IMG/VR virus record: IMGVR_UViG_3300032116_000374
Coordinates: 1-45,673 of that record
From: a virus
Strand: one strand, 5' to 3'
DNA: 45,673 nucleotides
Below, piece by piece: positions 8,058-39,412 of the stretch; position 1 is the first letter of the stretch; each line of letters starts with the position of its first letter. Under the pieces are notes generated by a model. The model was not told the DNA's origin and searched no databases. It saw nothing but the letters and a program-made list of their open reading frames with translations. Position numbers and translations under genes: made by a program.

Positions 8058-8087
8058 AACCCACCTGGATTTCTCCAGGTGGGTTTT
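8058..8087. terminator. Bidirectional intrinsic terminator
   Basis: A perfect 12-bp stem (AACCCACCTGGA with TCCAGGTGGGTT) closes a 4-base loop TTTC. A run of T follows the stem on both strands: TTTT on plus and TTTTTT on minus (the A run at 8054-8059). It lies between two convergent genes, the 224-aa gene and the major capsid gene, and so ends transcription in both directions. Confidence 0.92.
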
Positions 8088-12399: not shown

Positions 12400-13278
12400 G
12401 CGATTTAGGGCACAGCTAAGCATTTCGTCCTCGTTGGTCTCAAGTGAGAATGGTCCTTCTACAAATTCAAACCTACGACTTGGTGGACCTCCTATTGTTC
12501 CAACAGGCTTGTTGGACAAAAGACCTACAAACTGGCTAAACTGGCTTGATGACGAACCAAAAACAAACGCACATCCACTTAGATTCATCAAGTCTATGAC
12601 AGCGTCTTTAACACCATCCACTGAGCGGTAGGGATTTATGTCAAGATAATCAGCATGAAAATGTTCAGATAGAGATTGTTTTATCCGTAAATTTGGACAG
12701 CTTATGTAGAATCTAGTAGTGGGTCTTGCACTTACAATTCTGTGCATTAAAGCCTTAAATGCCTCTTCAGAGGCTCCACTAAAGCAGTCAAGGTGATTTA
12801 CACCTTCAGGCCTGTAGTCACCATATCTGAGATGGATTCCAATGTAAGATGAGTATTTCGAAGGAGACGCTTTGGCCAAGATCTCTCTTTTGAATGGAAT
12901 ACTTGACAGAAGTGTCTTAAGTGCATCTCTGTGATCTTCGGTGTGAAATTGTCCTGAAAATACTGGAGCAGTCCAAGACTTTATGACTATGATGTCGTGT
13001 GGATCATCTCTTCGTATGTTGGTGTATTCGTGAGGAGGAACTAAACCTGCATTGTAGACTTTACAGGTGACTCTAGCATCTAGTAGCCTGTATGACAACT
13101 CATGATCAGAAATAATGCTTAAATCTGAATCAAATATGTCCGTAAAGCTAACGTCCAACTCACTGTTTTTTGGCCAATAAATCTTAAAATCACGATTAAG
13201 ACTATCAGCGATTATTTTTGAACCCAACAGTGAGTGGATCCTATTGCAAAGTCCTGATGTGCAAGAAGCCACCAACAT
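12376..13278 (-). CDS. Fucosyltransferase-like protein, 300 aa
   Basis: Resembles the GT-B fucosyltransferases (GT11/GT23-type). The N-terminus SGLCNRIHSLLGSKIIAD (about 8-25) matches their G-x-x-N-R-x-x-x-x-x-x-x-x-A-x opening. IGIHLRYGDYR (about 149-159) matches the conserved H-x-R-x-G-D donor-site motif. The C-terminal SSSSQFSQFVGLLSNKP matches the S-x-F-S-x-x-x-x-L donor-binding end. The family assignment is by motif, and sugar specificity is not known. The start codon overlaps the preceding glycosyltransferase stop (TAATG), so the two are probably translationally coupled. Confidence 0.75.
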   Translation of the reverse strand: MLVASCTSGLCNRIHSLLGSKIIADSLNRDFKIYWPKNSELDVSFTDIFDSDLSIISDHELSYRLLDARVTCKVYNAGLVPPHEYTNIRRDDPHDIIVIKSWTAPVFSGQFHTEDHRDALKTLLSSIPFKREILAKASPSKYSSYIGIHLRYGDYRPEGVNHLDCFSGASEEAFKALMHRIVSARPTTRFYISCPNLRIKQSLSEHFHADYLDINPYRSVDGVKDAVIDLMNLSGCAFVFGSSSSQFSQFVGLLSNKPVGTIGGPPSRRFEFVEGPFSLETNEDEMLSCALNRLDGCMTQ

Positions 13279-14918
13279 TAAACAGGAGCACCTGGGTGAG
13301 TGTGTGAGACACTGAAGCCATCTTCAGCTTTGAATTTTGAGACAATCTGGTTTAGAAGATTTTTGTGATACGGAGTCAGATCGATCTTATTTTGCTCAGG
13401 CACATACAGACCGTCTGAACCATTCATCATGTGGCCAAAGTCCCAGATGTTTCGACCATGATAGAAACGAACGTATTGTGCTGGGTCACAATTCCAGTTA
13501 CCCACATGGTTATCAACACAAATAACTCTGTCTGAAAACCACTCCAGAAATTTTGTGTCCTCTCTTACTTCAAGAGAAAGATAACGGGCTGGTGTGGATC
13601 TTTCGTAGATAACTGACATCTGTTGGCCTGTGGGCATCTTGTCATAGAAAGCACAGTTGTTAGTCAACGAACACCGTATTTGCCAGATGAAAGTTGATAT
13701 GTGCTTCTCGCGTGTGTTGGCCATCTGATTCTCGATACGAGTGGGGTGGTGCCAGTCATCGTCGTCCCACGTCATACACCAGTCGCCTGTGGCATTCTCT
13801 ATCGACCAGTTTCTTAGATCACCAAGTGTTACTCCTTGGCCCTTAGTAACAAACACCTCCTTGATTCTAGCATCAGGGGTTTTGCACACTTTTTCGTTGC
13901 CATGGTTTATGATGACAAGTTCCTTATTGGACCACGTTTGGTCCAAGAAGCAACCAAGAGAAACTCTGGCAAGTGGGTAACGCTCAGCATTCTTGCCAGT
14001 GATCATCAGCGCTGATACTTTGGGCTTTTTCCACCCAGAGAAAAGTTGGGCCCTAAATAGAGTCCACTCAGTCTCCTCCACTCTTGGCCTTGTGATATTA
14101 CAGGCTGTCCAATTTATTGGATTGACCTTGATTCCTGACATGGTCCAATGCATCCATGTTGCGTGATCAGCGTTGTGCTGAAGTACTGGCATGGTATTCA
14201 TCACCACAACAGGAACAAGACTCACGTTAAAAAGGACACTGCCAATAGGTGATTGTTCCCACAGAACACTGTCCTTTCTAGCGACACAGACAGACTTAGA
14301 GACATTGCAGTACCAATCAGCAACCACGAAGAGGTAGTTGTTGGTCTCCATCAATGGCCAAATACGATTCACTAAGTCATCACACACCATGTCTCTAGCC
14401 ATGATGGGATACATAGTAGTTGGGATATTTTTAATCCTCGCCTGTCTAAAGGCTTCATTCGCACCAACTGACCACCAGTGTTGGCCATAGTCTATAACAT
14501 TTGTCTCCTTGGCCGACGTGGCATTCAACATTGGCGCACGTCCAGGATGTGTAATGGTAAGAAACCAACTTTTGCCTTTCAAAAGTGAATCAAGTTTGGC
14601 TATGCATTGATTCACTTGGTCATTGTTTTCGTCTGTTATTATTACAACAGCATGAAACACCGTTGATACTTTGAATGCGTCAACAGAATAAGGAATAACG
14701 ACCATACCGTTGTGGGTCATCGTTTCAGGTTCTTTCTTGACTTTTCCAACAGCTTTTGAGTATAGCCGCTGACAAGTTGAAGCGTCTAACAGTCCAGTGA
14801 CATTGATGCCGTTGTCTATTTGAAACGACCTTAAACACGTTTCAAATTTGTTAGACTTAGATACTTTGTATCCAAGAATAATCAAATACTCCTGGGCCGT
14901 TTTGACGTCGAGCTTCAT
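13278..14918 (-). CDS. Peptidoglycan-binding-like domain fused to family-2 glycosyltransferase, 546 aa
   Basis: The first ~55 residues match the PG_binding_1 three-helix pattern: QEYLIILGYKV…FETCLRSFQIDNGINVTGLLDASTC. The C-terminal ~250 residues form a GT2-type glycosyltransferase. Its opening is SALMITGKNAERYPLARVSL, then DQTWSNKELVIINHG, then a DDDD metal-binding cluster in MTWDDDDWHHPTRI (about 388-391). The middle (about 70-290) is not recognised but has alternating strands and helices that could be another glycosyltransferase-like fold. The start overlaps the membrane protein's stop (ATGA). A wall-binding module on a sugar transferase is unusual. It may act at the cell wall or be part of the virion. 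Confidence 0.75.
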   Translation of the reverse strand: MKLDVKTAQEYLIILGYKVSKSNKFETCLRSFQIDNGINVTGLLDASTCQRLYSKAVGKVKKEPETMTHNGMVVIPYSVDAFKVSTVFHAVVIITDENNDQVNQCIAKLDSLLKGKSWFLTITHPGRAPMLNATSAKETNVIDYGQHWWSVGANEAFRQARIKNIPTTMYPIMARDMVCDDLVNRIWPLMETNNYLFVVADWYCNVSKSVCVARKDSVLWEQSPIGSVLFNVSLVPVVVMNTMPVLQHNADHATWMHWTMSGIKVNPINWTACNITRPRVEETEWTLFRAQLFSGWKKPKVSALMITGKNAERYPLARVSLGCFLDQTWSNKELVIINHGNEKVCKTPDARIKEVFVTKGQGVTLGDLRNWSIENATGDWCMTWDDDDWHHPTRIENQMANTREKHISTFIWQIRCSLTNNCAFYDKMPTGQQMSVIYERSTPARYLSLEVREDTKFLEWFSDRVICVDNHVGNWNCDPAQYVRFYHGRNIWDFGHMMNGSDGLYVPEQNKIDLTPYHKNLLNQIVSKFKAEDGFSVSHTHPGAPV

Positions 14919-15235
14919 GGTTTACCACCAGACAGGTAGGTAGCAGCCATTCTGGCTGCTTCAAAACCAACGTTCTTGGTTTCTCCAATGCTCTTAATGA
15001 CAAAGTGCATGCACCTAAAGATTAGGATACACATCCACATCAAGTAGAAAAGAATGCCTCCCAAAAGTGCATTTGTGAGTGATTCTGGCCACACTTTGTA
15101 GATCACAAAGATTGCTATGGGCGAAGTGATGATTCCAAGTATGAATGGTGCATCAAACCACCGCAAAAAGCCCAGCATAACCAAGAAGTCAAATTGATTC
15201 TCTGGCTCACGAGGCAAGTCAAGATTAGTTTTCAT
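14915..15235 (-). CDS. Small membrane protein with two transmembrane segments, 106 aa
   Basis: An unrecognised protein with two or more hydrophobic helices: FILGIITSPIAIFVIYKVW at about 31-49, and ALLGGILFYLMWMCILIF at about 57-74. A short cytoplasmic-type N-terminus (…REPENQFDFLV) precedes them. It lies between a sigma-like gene and the PG-binding glycosyltransferase gene, with four-base ATGA overlaps at both ends. This implies one transcript and coupled translation. It could anchor a wall-targeting enzyme, be holin-like, or serve superinfection exclusion. No lysis-gene neighbours (endolysin, spanin) are visible. Confidence 0.75.
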   Translation of the reverse strand: MKTNLDLPREPENQFDFLVMLGFLRWFDAPFILGIITSPIAIFVIYKVWPESLTNALLGGILFYLMWMCILIFRCMHFVIKSIGETKNVGFEAARMAATYLSGGKP

Positions 15236-16740
15236 TCGAGGTCACCTTTCTGGATTTTTTCATTGGCCAACTGCTCAATGAGCTTGATTGAGTCCTTGAC
15301 AGAGGCATTCTTGTCCAGGTAATAGCCATTGGCCACTTGCACAAGCTTCTTCTTCAACTGAGATGATGGCCGGGTAAAACGCAAAGACAATTCACCATCA
15401 TCAGGATTCTTGCTCAACCATAAGATAGGTGACTTGCTTCCCTGCTTCAAAGCATAGGATATGATTTTCTCCTGGCTGCTGTCCTTTCTGGATTGTTCAG
15501 CTCGCTTGAAATTAGAGTTAAGGAAGTTGATGATTTCAACACTTCGCTCATTCACGCTGTCATCAACTGGGATGGTTGGAAGAGCCCGGATAGGCGCTTG
15601 GCTGTCACTGGTTGGCAAATCGATGTTGACTGCGGGTATTCTGTTTGTGCGACTTCCAAGAATAGATGGATGTGGAGTGATCTTGTCCAGGCCCAAAGAC
15701 CTCGTCTCAACCACACAGGCTGACTTAACTCCACAGCCCATACACTTTGGATGCTGATCTTCGTACATGATACCGAAGCAGCTCAACGCGAGTCCTTGAT
15801 CGACTGGAAGTCTGGCGTTGACGACTGACAGATGGTGCTTGACCTCCTCGTTGATCTTACTCAACATGTTACGGGCGGCTAAACTAAAAAGGCGTCTTAC
15901 AACGACTTTATCTGTGCTACGAGGAACCTCAACCCCAAACACTTTTGATAGAAAAGCGACTGAGGCATTCCATGAATAATCTTCAGAGGATGTTGACATA
16001 AAGACTTTGATTTTAGCTATAACCTGTTTGCGTACTTCCATAAAATGTTCAGTGGACATACCCAGTCCACTGGCCATATGGGAGTAATGGACTTTAAGAT
16101 TGGAGTTACGGCCATGTTTGGCCATGTCGCCCCACATCTCATACTTAGCGGATAGAACTGCTGCCGCGTTTGGTGCGCTAAGCTGTTGAACAACCAGCGA
16201 TTCAAGGGGTGTCAACACAGAACGCAAGTCCTCAAGAAGTTCAGCACCAAATGACCCAAAGTGATTGTCTGACTCTGGACACTCCAGACGTGACTCAACT
16301 TGCAGACGTGCCTCAGGATCATCGATGGAAATCTCAATAGGCTTGTGGTGTTCAGTAAGGAAGTCACCCTTTTCCGGTGGACGAATGCCAGTTCTTTTCA
16401 ATGTAAATCTGTGGCGTTGAACTTGTCCCTTAACATGGTTGTTCAGAGCAGTTTTGAGATACTTGAAAAATTCAAACCGGCTGCTAATTTCCATGTGTTT
16501 TCCATTGTGGAACAAGACACCAATTTTGACACGACACTCTGACCTCAACTCCTCTTCGGTGAGGTTGACACAGCCAGGATCAATGTATGGCCGAATTACA
16601 TTTTGAATCAGATTCTCAGTGTCTGAGGAAATCTCTTCAAAAACAGTTGGGCGATTTTCGAAATCGCATGGATGCACACAATGAAGTCGTGCATCCCTGT
16701 CTAACATTTTGTAGTCTATGACATCCTCATAGGAGGTCAT
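15232..16740 (-). CDS. Sigma-factor-like protein with Cys motif, 502 aa
   Basis: Probably a phage transcription factor related to sigma-70. LRSECRVKIGVLF followed by FEFFKYLKTALNNHVKGQVQ (about residues 80-115) resembles sigma region 2, the -10-binding helices. LLTPLESLVVQQL-like sequence and GLGMSTEHFMEVRKQVIAKI (about 185-260) resemble a region-4-style helix-turn-helix. A CFGIMYEDQHPKCMGCG…C segment near residue 345 is a possible zinc site. The C-terminal ~130 residues are not recognised. I choose ATG 16740, which overlaps the upstream gene by 14 bases. A start at 16773 would overlap by 47. It directly follows a second sigma-like gene. The sigma call rests on pattern, not alignment. Confidence 0.6.
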   Translation of the reverse strand: MTSYEDVIDYKMLDRDARLHCVHPCDFENRPTVFEEISSDTENLIQNVIRPYIDPGCVNLTEEELRSECRVKIGVLFHNGKHMEISSRFEFFKYLKTALNNHVKGQVQRHRFTLKRTGIRPPEKGDFLTEHHKPIEISIDDPEARLQVESRLECPESDNHFGSFGAELLEDLRSVLTPLESLVVQQLSAPNAAAVLSAKYEMWGDMAKHGRNSNLKVHYSHMASGLGMSTEHFMEVRKQVIAKIKVFMSTSSEDYSWNASVAFLSKVFGVEVPRSTDKVVVRRLFSLAARNMLSKINEEVKHHLSVVNARLPVDQGLALSCFGIMYEDQHPKCMGCGVKSACVVETRSLGLDKITPHPSILGSRTNRIPAVNIDLPTSDSQAPIRALPTIPVDDSVNERSVEIINFLNSNFKRAEQSRKDSSQEKIISYALKQGSKSPILWLSKNPDDGELSLRFTRPSSQLKKKLVQVANGYYLDKNASVKDSIKLIEQLANEKIQKGDLE

Positions 16741-17767
16741 CCTCTTCTCTGTCTTCGGGTGGGTAGTCATCATATACGGGGAACTCTCCAGACATCATTG
16801 GATTCATGATACCTGTCATGGTCACAAAGACATCTGTAGCAGATTTTTCTGTTTTACCAAAGCGTTTTGCTATCTTAGCGATAGCATCTGGATCCTTGTC
16901 AGAGTTTAGTATCTCCTGAACCATCTGACCCTGCTGCTTCATCCGAGCTATCTCAGCAATGGTTAGGACTTTCAATCTCTGGCCTCCAACACAAGCAAAT
17001 AACTTTAGGGCTGGCTTCCAACCGACAATATCAATGACTTGTGGCCATATGGTATTTCGGTACTGGGCCATGAATAGATCTTGATCTGTGAAACGTACAT
17101 ACTTTTCATCGTATAGCTCAGTTTTGATCTGTACGTGAGTCCAAGAGTAGAGGAACTTGGATGTGTCCATGCTAAGACCCCAGGCAAAAGCTGCACCACG
17201 AATGCAGTCTTGTCTTCTGTGATCATCTTCCATGATACATTCAATCATGTAACGTATGGCACCCCTCATCTCCTCAGACGCCCATGGAGCACTGATCCCT
17301 CGGATCTTAGTCAGAATGGCGTCTGATCTATCTTTGGCGTCTTGACCGTCATCTGTAAACCCAGAAAGTCGCTCAAGCGCAGCATCATCGTCTGTGCAAT
17401 GAACACGCTTGGTAAATGTTGTGGTCTTTACTAGCTCGGATCTGAAGACATTCTTAGCACAAGTAGACAGCCACGAAAAAAGGGACCCCTTAGCGGGGTC
17501 CCATTTCATGAGCCATTTAGGAATTTTCTCCTGTGCTGCTACCACCAATGAGTCTAGTGGTACGGTATGATGGAATTTTTCATGCTGTGCGAGACGCTTA
17601 AACATCTCGGTGGAGTCGGCAATGATAACCTCAAGGAGGTCCATTGCTTCCCAGGTCTTGTCTTCGTCTATCAGTCTTTTCCAATTAAGGACCAATGGTC
17701 GAATTTTTGACTCTGGGAAGATGTGCTCATCCTTAGTTCGGTTTGTGTCTTTGGCGACTCTCGGCAT
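16727..17767 (-). CDS. Sigma-70-region-2-like factor, 346 aa
   Basis: The segment WDPAKGSLFSWLSTCAKNVFR (about residues 89-109) closely follows the sigma region 2 signature D-P-x-K-G-x-F-x-x-W/Y-L-x-x-x-A-R-N. Helices around TIAEIARMKQQ and DPDAIAKIAKRFGKTEKSA (about 270-315) resemble region-4-type helix-turn-helix sequence. The acidic C-terminus (DDYPPEDREEDDLL) may contact RNA polymerase or a coactivator. This makes it a plausible gp55-type late sigma. It precedes a second sigma-like gene with overlap. The region-2 coding sequence itself contains a perfect intrinsic terminator in the sense orientation (17477-17503). The start is ATG 17767, four bases after the upstream stop. Confidence 0.75.
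   Translation of the reverse strand: MPRVAKDTNRTKDEHIFPESKIRPLVLNWKRLIDEDKTWEAMDLLEVIIADSTEMFKRLAQHEKFHHTVPLDSLVVAAQEKIPKWLMKWDPAKGSLFSWLSTCAKNVFRSELVKTTTFTKRVHCTDDDAALERLSGFTDDGQDAKDRSDAILTKIRGISAPWASEEMRGAIRYMIECIMEDDHRRQDCIRGAAFAWGLSMDTSKFLYSWTHVQIKTELYDEKYVRFTDQDLFMAQYRNTIWPQVIDIVGWKPALKLFACVGGQRLKVLTIAEIARMKQQGQMVQEILNSDKDPDAIAKIAKRFGKTEKSATDVFVTMTGIMNPMMSGEFPVYDDYPPEDREEDDLL
17477..17503 (-). terminator. Intragenic intrinsic terminator in the sigma-like gene
   Basis: In the sense (minus) direction an 8-bp perfect stem, GGGACCCC pairing GGGGTCCC, closes a GCTAA loop and is followed directly by TTTTTT. This has every feature of a factor-independent terminator, yet it encodes D-P-A-K-G-S-L-F of sigma region 2. 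On the opposite strand there is no T run, so it is directional. Function as an attenuator is inferred. Confidence 0.7.
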
Positions 17768-17771
17768 GATA

Positions 17772-18386
17772 CTAAGAACGCGACTTTCGGGAAGTCAACG
17801 TTCCAGCCTCAACATATTGACGACGAATGTCATCAATAGCTTTTACCCGAGCCTCGTGACCTGGCATCTTGTCATGTGATGACGCGATAAAATGCAGGCT
17901 GTTGGACAAAGCCACCAAACCCAGCACAAAACTGCCAGAAACGTGGCTTACGAACGCACCAGTGATGGATTCAACCAGGGCCAAATCCAGCTCTAGGTCA
18001 GCTGCAATACGCTTGGAAATCTCAGAGTGTTCAACAGTACCTGTTGGAACTCCCGAAGATTTGGCGGTGGATCCCGAGGACTTGACAACCGAAGGAGTCG
18101 ATGGGGCCTCATCTTCAGCCTCTGTTGGCGTGGCTGGCTGAGCTTCTGCCAAAAGCTCAAGAGCTAGTTTCACGACCTCGTCCTTACGTGGAGCGTAAGC
18201 GTTCTCAACCTTCTTGGTGACTTCAGCAGCCAACTTCAACACCTTTACAGGGGTGGGGCTGCCACGCTTGGGTACATCAATCTTTTCAGACTTGTTGATC
18301 TTACCTTTCAGCTCATCTGTGTTAAGAAGAATTTCTTCAATCTTTGACACAGTGGCGAATGTGACTACGTTTTCTTTCTTGTCCAT
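17772..18386 (-). CDS. Hypothetical protein, 204 aa
   Basis: Not recognised. The N-terminal ~75 residues are Lys-rich and helical (…KVLKLAAEVTKKVENAY). A low-complexity Pro/Thr/Ser/Glu linker spans about 85-125. The C-terminal region has a hydrophobic stretch FVSHVSGSFVLGLVALSNSLHF (about 147-168), possibly a buried helix rather than a membrane segment, and ends in a charged tail. It is the first gene of a probable transcript running into the two sigma-like genes, with a possible promoter at 18407-18434. The ATG at 18386 is preceded by an A-rich leader with no Shine-Dalgarno sequence. Confidence 0.75.
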   Translation of the reverse strand: MDKKENVVTFATVSKIEEILLNTDELKGKINKSEKIDVPKRGSPTPVKVLKLAAEVTKKVENAYAPRKDEVVKLALELLAEAQPATPTEAEDEAPSTPSVVKSSGSTAKSSGVPTGTVEHSEISKRIAADLELDLALVESITGAFVSHVSGSFVLGLVALSNSLHFIASSHDKMPGHEARVKAIDDIRRQYVEAGTLTSRKSRS

Positions 18387-18443: not shown

Positions 18444-18911
18444 TCAACTATTGCTGTTTCCCATGATACGATTAAGCTCAGCGTTGGCCATCGACAGTGC
18501 TTCCAGCTCTGGGTTGTAGTTGCCATATCGACGAACGGTGGCTGTAAACTCCTGTACATCTGGTGATCGACTTCCAAGCTTTACTTCACCACTGTCTGTC
18601 AACTTGATGGATATGCGCATCAAAGCCTTATGAATGGCCGCCTCACGCTTGGCTGGAAAGTTTTGCCACGCATAGGCATCAAAAACTACGATGTAATGCT
18701 TGTCAATAAAAGCATTGAATGGTGCACCAACTTTCTTTAGCTGAGCAGGATCTCCCTTGCTTGCCACATACTCGTTGTCGCTGTTCATCTTGATTTTTAG
18801 GCAAGATGTGATGGAAACTCCGTGGGTTACCAGAGCTGTGAAATCTGACTCAGACAGCACGTCATTGACAAGCTGTTCAAGCTCAGAGCTTTGTTCGTAC
18901 TCAGTAGGCAT
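18444..18911 (-). CDS. Phage metallopeptidase-domain-like protein lacking HExxH, 155 aa
   Basis: The overall pattern recalls the putative phage metallopeptidase domain: a strand HYIVVFDAYAWQNF, a helix that normally carries HELCH, then GEVKLGSRSPDVQEFTATVR and RYGNYNPELEAL near the end (compare the family's H-D-V-E-E-F and Y-G-x-W-x-P-x-L). Where the zinc-binding HExxH should be, the sequence reads REAAIHKALMRISIK (about residues 89-103), so no HExxH is present. If the homology is right, this is a pseudoenzyme. It lies next to UvsX with a TAATG overlap, which suggests a replication or recombination accessory role. The homology call is from memory of the family pattern. Confidence 0.6.
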   Translation of the reverse strand: MPTEYEQSSELEQLVNDVLSESDFTALVTHGVSITSCLKIKMNSDNEYVASKGDPAQLKKVGAPFNAFIDKHYIVVFDAYAWQNFPAKREAAIHKALMRISIKLTDSGEVKLGSRSPDVQEFTATVRRYGNYNPELEALSMANAELNRIMGNSNS

Positions 18912-20218
18912 TAGATAAGGTCCTCGTCATCATCAGTTTTCTTGCGACCAAACATTTCATCATCGTCGTCATCAGACGCCAACGCATCAATCTGGGCTTC
19001 AGAGGAGAATATCTTTTTCTCTGTAGCAGCCCACAAGGCATCAAAGTCGACCTTGTGCTCGTTGTAGAATGCAGGCCAGTCAATTCGAGAGTCTATTGAA
19101 GGATTGGCCCTCTTAGACTCAAATGTGGTTGGTGTTACTCCATTTGCTTGGAATCTGAAAGAGATAGTTCCAGATTCATCCTTGGCCATATCTAGCATGA
19201 TGAAGGTTTCTAGCATGGAGAAGGTTTCGCTGAAACCACCACCCGCGCTATTCTCATCACCAAACAACAAAACCATTCGGCCTTTTCTCAATGGCTTCTT
19301 GACTCGATTCTTGACCGTCTTCATCTCAATCAAGAGACCATCCTCAAGCTTATTGTCTGGGTGTAGCTTGTACTTCTTAGGCACTTTTTGCACGAAGATA
19401 CGCTGAGACGCGTAGAACTTCAAGGCTCTGCCACCAAATGTAGCATAGTCATTCTCATCTGGCAGAGCATTTGGGTTCTTCTTCATCTTTTGAGCAAAAG
19501 AATCAGAGACCTGGTTGATGCAGAGCAGGCAGACATTGTGCTTATTGATCGCTCTGGAGACTCTCCGGAACGCAGAGCGTAGCTCCTTTGCATGTCTTGA
19601 GAAGTCCTGCTGTCCCCATTCCTGGTTAAGCTCCTGCTCAGTGGATGTTGATGCGATCGTGTCGATCACCACAAAGATGAACTGTTCACGATCTGTGTCC
19701 TTGGAACTCTCCTCAACAACCTTGACGATACGCTCAATGGCATCGAAGATCTGGCCAATGGTGTCACAACGACCAAGAATGAAGTCAGCTTTGACACCAT
19801 CAATGGTCAATGAGTTGTCATCAGAGAAAGATTGCTCATTGTCAATGTAGAGCACGTGGGTGTCAATTTTCTCCGGATCCAGTTTTTCATAAGTCGTCCT
19901 CTTGACATTATCAGTGCCAAAGGTTACCACACGCTTATAGATGTTTTTAAGCTGAGCACTGATGCCAGCCTTCTTGGCCAATGCTGTCTTGCCTGACGCA
20001 TCGATTCCATAAACCTCAATGATACGACCAAAAGGCAATGCGCCTGTCACGGCATCATACACCTTGTTGTCAATCATGAGGACATGCCTAACGTCTGATA
20101 GGATAGACGAAGACATACGGCCGAATTCGGCCAGTGGATCACCCTTCTTGTCTGAAGTAAGTTTCTGAAGGGCTGCAAGGACCTTGTCCTTGACTTGGGG
20201 TAGCGACGGTTTTTTCAT
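18911..20218 (-). CDS. uvsX: RecA/UvsX-type recombinase
   Basis: The strand-exchange ATPase of phage recombination and recombination-dependent replication. It coats ssDNA, pairs homologous duplex and helps start forks. Walker A is GIDASGKT (71-78) in the RecA-like context FGRIIEVYG. Walker B is FVVID at about 182-186, followed by TIASTSTEQE. CLLCINQVSDSF (about 230-241) matches the RecA/UvsX sensor region. The acidic C-terminus (DDDDDE…) is typical of UvsX/RecA tails that tune filament growth and partner binding. At 435 aa it is slightly longer than T4 UvsX (391). It directly follows the gp32-like gene with an ATGA overlap, so strand exchanger and ssDNA-binding protein are co-expressed. Confidence 0.92.
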   Translation of the reverse strand: MKKPSLPQVKDKVLAALQKLTSDKKGDPLAEFGRMSSSILSDVRHVLMIDNKVYDAVTGALPFGRIIEVYGIDASGKTALAKKAGISAQLKNIYKRVVTFGTDNVKRTTYEKLDPEKIDTHVLYIDNEQSFSDDNSLTIDGVKADFILGRCDTIGQIFDAIERIVKVVEESSKDTDREQFIFVVIDTIASTSTEQELNQEWGQQDFSRHAKELRSAFRRVSRAINKHNVCLLCINQVSDSFAQKMKKNPNALPDENDYATFGGRALKFYASQRIFVQKVPKKYKLHPDNKLEDGLLIEMKTVKNRVKKPLRKGRMVLLFGDENSAGGGFSETFSMLETFIMLDMAKDESGTISFRFQANGVTPTTFESKRANPSIDSRIDWPAFYNEHKVDFDALWAATEKKIFSSEAQIDALASDDDDDEMFGRKKTDDDEDLI

Positions 20219-37146: not shown

Positions 37147-37809
37147 TTATTTGGAAGAACGACCAAGGATGTCATTGACCTTCGCAGCATCAACTTTGTA
37201 ACCCTTGGCTTTCATTCTTTTTACAATTTCTGAGGTTTCAAGCCTCTTTAAGGCTCTGACCTCGTCCTCGCACTCCAAGACCATCTTGATTAGATTCTCA
37301 GCCTTTATGATGGACTCATTGGTCTCCTTGGCCTGTAGTTTTCTCTTGGGGTCTTCCTCATCGTGGCTGAAGGTGTCAGCCACATCTCTCATCATCTTGT
37401 CGAGGTTGACATCCTTCTGGTCATTCTTAAGAGGGCCATCGTGGAGATCTAGCTCAAGGAATCTGATGCGATAATCTGTCTGGTTTGGATCAGAATCTCC
37501 ACAGATATTCATCACCCAGCCAAGTTCGGCCAACTTTTCCATTCCATCTGGAGACTCGAGGCTGTTTACAGCAGCCTGGTAATCTTTAGCAGAATCAAAA
37601 TGAGCAACCACAGACGCATACTCAGGCACAAGCTTGTCATCTGGCACACTGACACCGATGGCAGAAAGGGCCTTATTTAAGGGTCCTTTTTTAACTTCTA
37701 TCCTGTTCTCCGTCTTGATTTGCTCAGCTAAATTAAGGAGATCATCACGAAAATCGTTGTCCTCCTGAGCATCGTACAGATAGTTGATTAAAGCCTTAAG
37801 GTCTTTCAT
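37147..37809 (-). CDS. Hypothetical acidic protein, 220 aa
   Basis: Not recognised. Charged and helical throughout. The C-terminal ~70 residues (KLQAKETNESIIKAENLIKMV, RALKRLETSEIVKRMKAKG) look like a coiled coil followed by a helical domain. I choose ATG 37809 (MKDLKALINYL); the frame extends to 37878, but that would overlap the divergent helicase start. It heads the eight-gene minus-strand cluster. The divergent helicase ATG is only 22 bases away, and the gap holds TAACTACTAC, a partial match to the start-associated motif. Confidence 0.72.
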   Translation of the reverse strand: MKDLKALINYLYDAQEDNDFRDDLLNLAEQIKTENRIEVKKGPLNKALSAIGVSVPDDKLVPEYASVVAHFDSAKDYQAAVNSLESPDGMEKLAELGWVMNICGDSDPNQTDYRIRFLELDLHDGPLKNDQKDVNLDKMMRDVADTFSHDEEDPKRKLQAKETNESIIKAENLIKMVLECEDEVRALKRLETSEIVKRMKAKGYKVDAAKVNDILGRSSK

Positions 37810-37831
37810 TTCTATGGTAACTACTACAACC

Positions 37832-39412
37832 ATGCTTGACTTTTTCCCTCTGTCTAAACCCAGAGAAAAACAAGTCAAAGCCGTTCAGTTCATCCAAGCT
37901 GCAATAGAACGCGGGTACAAGCACATTGTTGTTTCGGCTCCCACTGGAACAGGTAAAACAGCCATTGGTGCCACTTTGTGCCTATGGGCAGCCAGTCAAA
38001 ATGCATCAAGTCTGAGAGGTGAGCCAGGAGGATACTATCTGGTAACTCAAAAGATGCTACAAGATCAGCTTGAGAAAGACTTCGTAAAGCATCCACAGTT
38101 CGGGTGTGCGTCACTCAAGTCAGCCGCGGCCTATGAGTGTGATGAACCCAGATTTAAGAATTGTGAGATTGGTCGTACAAAGAACAAGTGTGGCGGATGC
38201 ACAAAGTACAATCCACTCAAAGAAAAATTCTTGACATCTACCATTGGAGTTACTAACTATTCCTACTTTATCACCGAGAAGTTGAACGTGGGCAAGATGC
38301 CCACTAGAAGAGTTATGGTGCTGGACGAGTGTCACAACATCGAACGTCTTCTTGTTAGATTCTTTGACATTACAGTTGGCCAAGAACAGATGGATGATGT
38401 TGAAGTATTGGACAGGATCCCTGAATTTTCTAGCATAAATCATTTCATTTTGTGGTGTAACAACGTGTATAAACCCCGTCTAAAAGAAAAAGCTGAAAAC
38501 ATGGCCAGTGTGGCCCACAGCAGTGAAGCAGTTGAGGACATCAATAAGGCTATGAAGCTGGCCATGCAGCTTCAAAAGCTATGTAGGGCTCTGGATTCAA
38601 TGAATGCCAATCCACAGGATTGGGTGTTTTGGAGTCAAGAAGACCAGAAGATCAAAGGTAAGCAGTACATCGCCAGGCCACTCTATGCCCATGAGTTCAC
38701 ATCATCACTCTTTGGAGACTCTGATGTAATCTTGCACATGTCAGCTTTCCCAGGCGACAAAATCACCTACTGTCAGTCATTAGGTTTGGATCCTAATGAC
38801 GTTGCATGGATTGGTCTTGGCTCAACATTTCCAGTGGAAAATCGACCAATCCACATCGCCTCTGTAGGGTCGATGAGCATGAGAAACATTGATGCCACTT
38901 TGCCAGTCTTGATAAAATACACCATTCGAATCATGGACAAATTCCATGACAAGAAGGGACTCATACACTGCAACTCGTACAAAGTTGGTCAAGCCTTATA
39001 TGATGCTTTGAATGATACTGCACATAGCAATCGTATCATCTATCCCAAGAGTGCCGAAGAAAGAGAGCAGGCATTCAATGACCACGCAAACTCAAAGATG
39101 CCCACAGTGATAATCAGCCCATCCATGACGGAGGGTTTTGACTTTGCTGGCACATTGGCTGAGTGGCAGATCATTGCTAAAGTGCCATTCCCAAATATGG
39201 GAGACAAGCACACATGCAAACGAAAGGACGTGGATGACAACTGGTACAAGATGGAAACCATCAAGACCATAGTCCAAGCTTGTGGACGAATTGTCAGATC
39301 AGAGACCGATAAGGGTACCACCTACATCATGGACTCTGATATCAACAGACTGCTAGACTACAACTCTAACCTCTTCCCAAAGTGGTGGTTGTCAGCTATG
39401 ATTAGGCGTTAG
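37832..39412 (+). CDS. XPD/DinG-like Fe-S helicase, 526 aa
   Basis: A 5'-3' superfamily 2 DNA helicase of the XPD/DinG/Rad3 type, which unwinds damaged, R-loop or forked DNA. Walker A is SAPTGTGKTA (35-44). A four-Cys cluster with the Fe-S spacing lies at Cys103, Cys111, Cys120 and Cys123, between motifs I and II as in XPD. Motif II is DECH (165-168). Motif V-like SPSMTEGFDFAG and motif VI VQACGRIVRSETDKG end the second RecA domain. At 526 aa it is shorter than bacterial DinG (about 715). It is on the plus strand with no co-directional neighbour. ATG 37832 is chosen, but ATG 37814 is possible. No Shine-Dalgarno sequence. Confidence 0.9.
   Translation: MLDFFPLSKPREKQVKAVQFIQAAIERGYKHIVVSAPTGTGKTAIGATLCLWAASQNASSLRGEPGGYYLVTQKMLQDQLEKDFVKHPQFGCASLKSAAAYECDEPRFKNCEIGRTKNKCGGCTKYNPLKEKFLTSTIGVTNYSYFITEKLNVGKMPTRRVMVLDECHNIERLLVRFFDITVGQEQMDDVEVLDRIPEFSSINHFILWCNNVYKPRLKEKAENMASVAHSSEAVEDINKAMKLAMQLQKLCRALDSMNANPQDWVFWSQEDQKIKGKQYIARPLYAHEFTSSLFGDSDVILHMSAFPGDKITYCQSLGLDPNDVAWIGLGSTFPVENRPIHIASVGSMSMRNIDATLPVLIKYTIRIMDKFHDKKGLIHCNSYKVGQALYDALNDTAHSNRIIYPKSAEEREQAFNDHANSKMPTVIISPSMTEGFDFAGTLAEWQIIAKVPFPNMGDKHTCKRKDVDDNWYKMETIKTIVQACGRIVRSETDKGTTYIMDSDINRLLDYNSNLFPKWWLSAMIRR

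Follow-up and report, generated by a model that had tools for sequence, protein, structure and literature searches.

A terminator-like hairpin within a sigma factor-like gene of a freshwater phage

A freshwater phage carries a terminator-like hairpin within the reading frame of a sigma factor-like gene. The reading that we prefer, at a probability of roughly 60%, is that this element is a strong, lineage-specific cryptic intrinsic terminator lying inside a translated gene, where it is masked by translating ribosomes. Because 16 relatives lack it, a fortuitous structure that ribosomes usually conceal is a likelier explanation than a conserved switch. Three points are inferred: RNA polymerase would respond to the structure, translating ribosomes would hide it, and the phage would tolerate it without selection in its favor.

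A strong hairpin inside a coding region

On the minus strand, positions 17502-17476 read GGGACCCC-GCTAA-GGGGTCCC-TTTTTT. The stem-loop (17482-17502; GGGACCCCGCTAAGGGGTCCC), apparent both in the sequence and in RNA folding, consists of eight Watson-Crick pairs, seven of which are G-C, closed by a loop of five nucleotides. Abutting the stem is a tract of six T (17476-17481, minus strand) that forms parts of codons L96, F97 and S98. An earlier note had described the structure of this hairpin correctly and had placed it in the correct gene, with coordinates that were off by one (now 17476-17502). The hairpin lies 265 nt from the start of the 1,041-nt gene (17767-16727, minus strand; 346 amino acids) and spans codons W89 (second and third positions)-D-P-A-K-G-S-L-F97.

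This arrangement of a GC-rich stem, a short loop and at least five T directly thereafter is that of an intrinsic terminator. The predicted folding energy of the hairpin is -17.7 to -18.9 kcal/mol, with -18.9 for the 27-nt segment, and its terminator score is d = 45.2, where d was calculated in the style of d'Aubenton-Carafa. Among all genes of the window (the whole stretch of DNA that was analysed, 45,673 nucleotides), there is no second strong terminator of this class in sense orientation. A longer hairpin, extending approximately from 17466 to 17514 on the same strand, can form when CAUGAAA upstream pairs with UUUCGUG at and after the U tract. Inspection of the predicted fold around the site gave one extended hairpin and no clear alternative structure.

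The window also supplies a yardstick. An apparently genuine bidirectional terminator with a 10-bp stem flanked by A6 and T4 lies between convergent genes at 8060-8083, following the gene for a gp23-like capsid protein (Gp23 match, E = 1.3e-27). It scores d = 42.1, which is comparable to the value of the in-gene hairpin, and on this basis we consider the observation sound. Since such a terminator follows the capsid gene, the phage polymerase plausibly uses intrinsic termination. Another terminator-like sequence, GGGCCTTATTTAAGGGTCC-TTTTTT, is located at 37668-37686 on the plus strand, about 100 nt upstream of a plus-strand helicase reading frame (37784-39412) and antisense to the reading frame at 37147-37878.

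The gene and its neighborhood

The 346-amino-acid protein looks like a member of the sigma70 family, in agreement with the earlier note and short of proof. It has a weak match to the Pfam family Sigma70_r2 (E = 0.019, below the cut-off, residues 86-114), and sigma factors head the Foldseek matches of its AlphaFold model in the PDB (the best match has E = 0.008 and a probability of 0.99, with a low global TM of 0.23). Its start codon is 4 bp from a 204-amino-acid gene located directly upstream in the same cluster (17772-18386, minus strand), and a UvsX/RecA-like recombinase (18911-20218, minus strand) belongs to the same conserved gene block.

Downstream, and overlapping the sigma-like gene, is a conserved partner gene of 513 amino acids (15232-16773, minus strand). 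It had been proposed as a second sigma-like gene, which we could not confirm: Pfam and structure searches gave no Pfam sigma match for this protein, and the weak matches to ECF sigma factors were mixed with unrelated ones. Its invariant cysteines (C332, C344, C347 and C353 in the numbering of the family alignment) are possibly a metal-binding site.

Other products of the 45.7-kb window, which is a virus record of IMG/VR, include T4-like gp23, a prohead protease, UvsX/RecA, an NAD-dependent ligase and helicases, and relatives on contigs of up to 238 kb suggest that the phage belongs to a jumbo phage group. A 546-amino-acid protein (13278-14918, minus strand) has an odd combination of peptidoglycan-binding and family 2 glycosyltransferase domains.

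Amino acid constraint and codon choice

With TCN for Ser and CTN for Leu, the encoded amino acids fix five of the eight base pairs (W2-L1, D1-S2, D2-S1, P1-G2 and P2-G1). The full set of eight forms in 2.3% of synonymous codings, and the full set together with T6 in 0.23%. When codons were resampled synonymously according to the window's own codon usage, 54 out of 200,000 trials re-created a GC-rich 8-bp terminator with T6 at the site (p = 2.7e-4). For occurrence anywhere in the 41 kb of coding DNA of the window, the fraction was 0.00055 of 9,072 trials (8 bp, at least six G-C, T6), and looser criteria gave 0.0018 (T5/6) and 0.025 (7 bp, at least five G-C, T5/6). These p values overstate significance, because the criteria were post hoc and a large scan had singled out the site, and therefore they alone do not prove selection. 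Chance formation through the D-P and K-G codons, the alternative offered by the earlier note, is partly right in view of the five pairs that follow from the amino acids. The site is less frequent than expected from the choice among synonymous codons.

Several codons at the site are rare (GGG, 5%; CCC, 13%; TCC, 15%). Local mRNA structure here is more stable than that of synonymous codings (z = -4.7, p = 0.001), the sole such region in the gene, and flanking codons contribute pairing outside the core stem (p = 0.023 by synonymous resampling). Across approximately 315 kb of reading frames, just three or four in-gene sites have d > 0, including one that a relative (L033; see below) has at the corresponding codons. 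The rare codons, low p values, pairing by the flanks and scarcity of in-gene sites are a hint of selection.

The same arms were sought throughout IMG/VR by a scan for GGGACCCC-N3-8-GGGGTCCC-T5, which returned 30 stretches, three of them from the present species. In the other 27 stretches, the hairpin lies outside reading frames or no more than about 200 nt from the end of the covering frame; these frames were called mechanically, and several are short or doubtful and probably spurious. Only in the present species does the hairpin sit in a conserved gene as far as 747 nt from the stop codon. This distribution is consistent with a genuine terminator sequence at an uncommon location.

Absence of the hairpin from divergent relatives

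L002-L004, three contigs of the phage's own species, are 99.6-99.8% identical over 11 kb and carry an identical hairpin, with one SNP in the gene and none in the hairpin, and are too similar to be informative about conservation. We also gathered 16 divergent orthologs (36-44% identity) from IMG/VR, leaving aside L027 and L029, which at the hairpin site appear to duplicate L026 and L028. The sigma-like and 513-amino-acid genes adjoin in the same order in all 16, and the RecA-like gene is upstream in 14 of the 16 loci.

The hairpin stem is missing from every one of these orthologs, because the Ser encoded by the 3' arm is there replaced by Arg or Lys. The Asp of the stem is replaced as well, mostly by Gln and otherwise by Ser, Arg, Asn or Lys. 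The family motif is W-x-[PR]-x-[KR]-G-[RK]-[LI]-F-[SAT]-W, and G94 is the sole invariant residue among DPAKGS; W89, L96 ([LI] in the motif), F97 and W99 nearby are also invariant. The hairpin does encode DPAKGSLF, as had been noted, whereas the conservation ascribed to DPAKGS is confined to that glycine. One ortholog (L026) retains the codons CTT TTT TCG, and with them T6, without the stem. Fold stability for the relatives combined gave p = 0.06.

The absence from all 16 orthologs rules out a conserved attenuator and leaves the designed attenuator of the earlier note unsupported. That note had held that relatives breaking the stem by synonymous changes would speak against it; they do break the stem, in keeping with the spirit of this argument, mainly by the amino acid replacements described above. 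A core regulatory role is unlikely because the hairpin is not conserved, and a lineage-specific role is conceivable.

A scan of whole genes for terminator-like sites was positive in one of the 16 relatives. This representative (L033) has a different and weaker terminator-like hairpin, TGGCTCTTGCGTTGGCAACCGCGCAAGGGCCG-TTTGTTTTCC, formed at the same codons from other arms (d = 17.1). Synonymous resampling of the 16 relatives predicts 0.05 sites with d > 0 and 0.006 with d of at least 17. That the L033 hairpin exceeds chance is suggestive, a hint and no demonstration, and it is missing from the nearest relative of L033, the 61%-identical L071 (on the same contig as L035).

No relatives were found among GenBank phages by protein search or in GTDB genomes by scans, and the scans used on IMG/VR found none that is 45-99% identical to the window. 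A further pattern scan added one contig only, which is non-homologous.

Two relatives have an apparent LAGLIDADG intein in the sigma-like gene (L040:4603-6714, 367 aa; L041:1943-3904), right after the W..KG.[LI]FSWF motif and at insertion points that are equal or within two residues of each other. The assignment is based on matches to LAGLIDADG_2 (E about 2e-17) and Intein_splicing (E about 1e-6, below the cut-off). Literature searches, covering mostly titles and abstracts, found no description of a phage sigma factor with an intein.

Possible mechanism and alternative explanations

The protein motif W-D-P-x-x-G-S-L-F-S, when encoded with GAC, CCC, GGG, TCC, CTT and TTT, yields an inverted repeat followed by six T. 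During normal infection, the leading ribosome would cover the stem as RNA polymerase crosses the U tract, and full-length mRNA would be made. Should ribosomes fall behind or fail to initiate, transcription could end at the hairpin, which would lower expression of the sigma-like gene and of the gene downstream. The hairpin is thus expected to have little effect while the mRNA is translated well, and to act conditionally in other circumstances.

Closely trailing ribosomes are known to keep intrinsic terminator hairpins from forming, and uncoupling frees those that lie within genes (PMC5021804). In a set of 255 E. coli genes, 49 were predicted to contain internal terminators, and those of narY and rsxC were tested (PMC5021804). 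These two likewise combine a GC-rich stem and a U tract within a reading frame and are expected to be suppressed by ribosomes, whereas the present example resides in a phage gene and is known from its sequence. Intragenic 3' ends are also induced by azithromycin in Pseudomonas aeruginosa (PMC8297930).

A rather unlikely rival is a translation-coupled attenuator peculiar to this lineage. Lagging ribosomes would here permit a stop after about 290 nt of the sigma-like gene, so that the output of this gene and of the one downstream would depend on translation or on an antiterminator of the phage. The rarity of the site (p = 2.7e-4 locally; 5.5e-4 to 0.025 for coding DNA of the whole window) argues for this possibility, although the criteria were post hoc, as do the rare codons and the local mRNA structure with z = -4.7 that is unique in the gene. 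The L033 hairpin at the same codons, where 0.05 were expected in 16 relatives, points the same way, but it is lost in the 61%-identical L035/L071, and the other 15 of the 16 relatives have no terminator-like hairpin of any kind at the site. Moreover, no leader peptide, antiterminator hairpin or antiterminator gene was recognized in the window, many genes of which have no family match. Attenuators of the pyrL or trp leader type similarly use a terminator that depends on ribosome position; the phage hairpin differs from them in that it is not in a leader, is not conserved, and is accompanied by no recognized leader peptide or alternative hairpin.

We judge it improbable that the RNA structure instead serves in pausing of polymerase or ribosomes, in mRNA stability or in the release of a short 5' mRNA fragment. 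The strong local fold, flanks included, is compatible with such roles, and the numerous 3' ends internal to reading frames in E. coli can yield functional RNAs (PMC7815308). However, the structure is not conserved and no specific partner was found. Equally doubtful is a more far-reaching proposal that, in some members of the jumbo group, the mRNA for the most conserved motif of the sigma-like factor also serves as an intrinsic terminator that arose separately in two or more lineages, and acts as a built-in sensor that permits the sigma factor only when translation keeps pace.

The symmetric stem could form on both strands, but on the plus strand it is followed by ATTTCATG rather than a T run, with the six-base run preceding it as A6, and it is thus very improbable that the hairpin ends an antisense transcript. 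Programmed frameshifting on the T run is unlikely because the other frames after the tract yield tails of only 7 or 14 residues.

Implications

If the hairpin causes termination in vivo, the output of a phage sigma-like factor would depend on ribosome traffic, which would constitute a simple form of feedback. We know of no such feedback in any relative of this phage. If it does not, the hairpin neatly illustrates that strong cryptic terminators can result from protein motifs, and it warns against taking in-gene terminator predictions for regulators.
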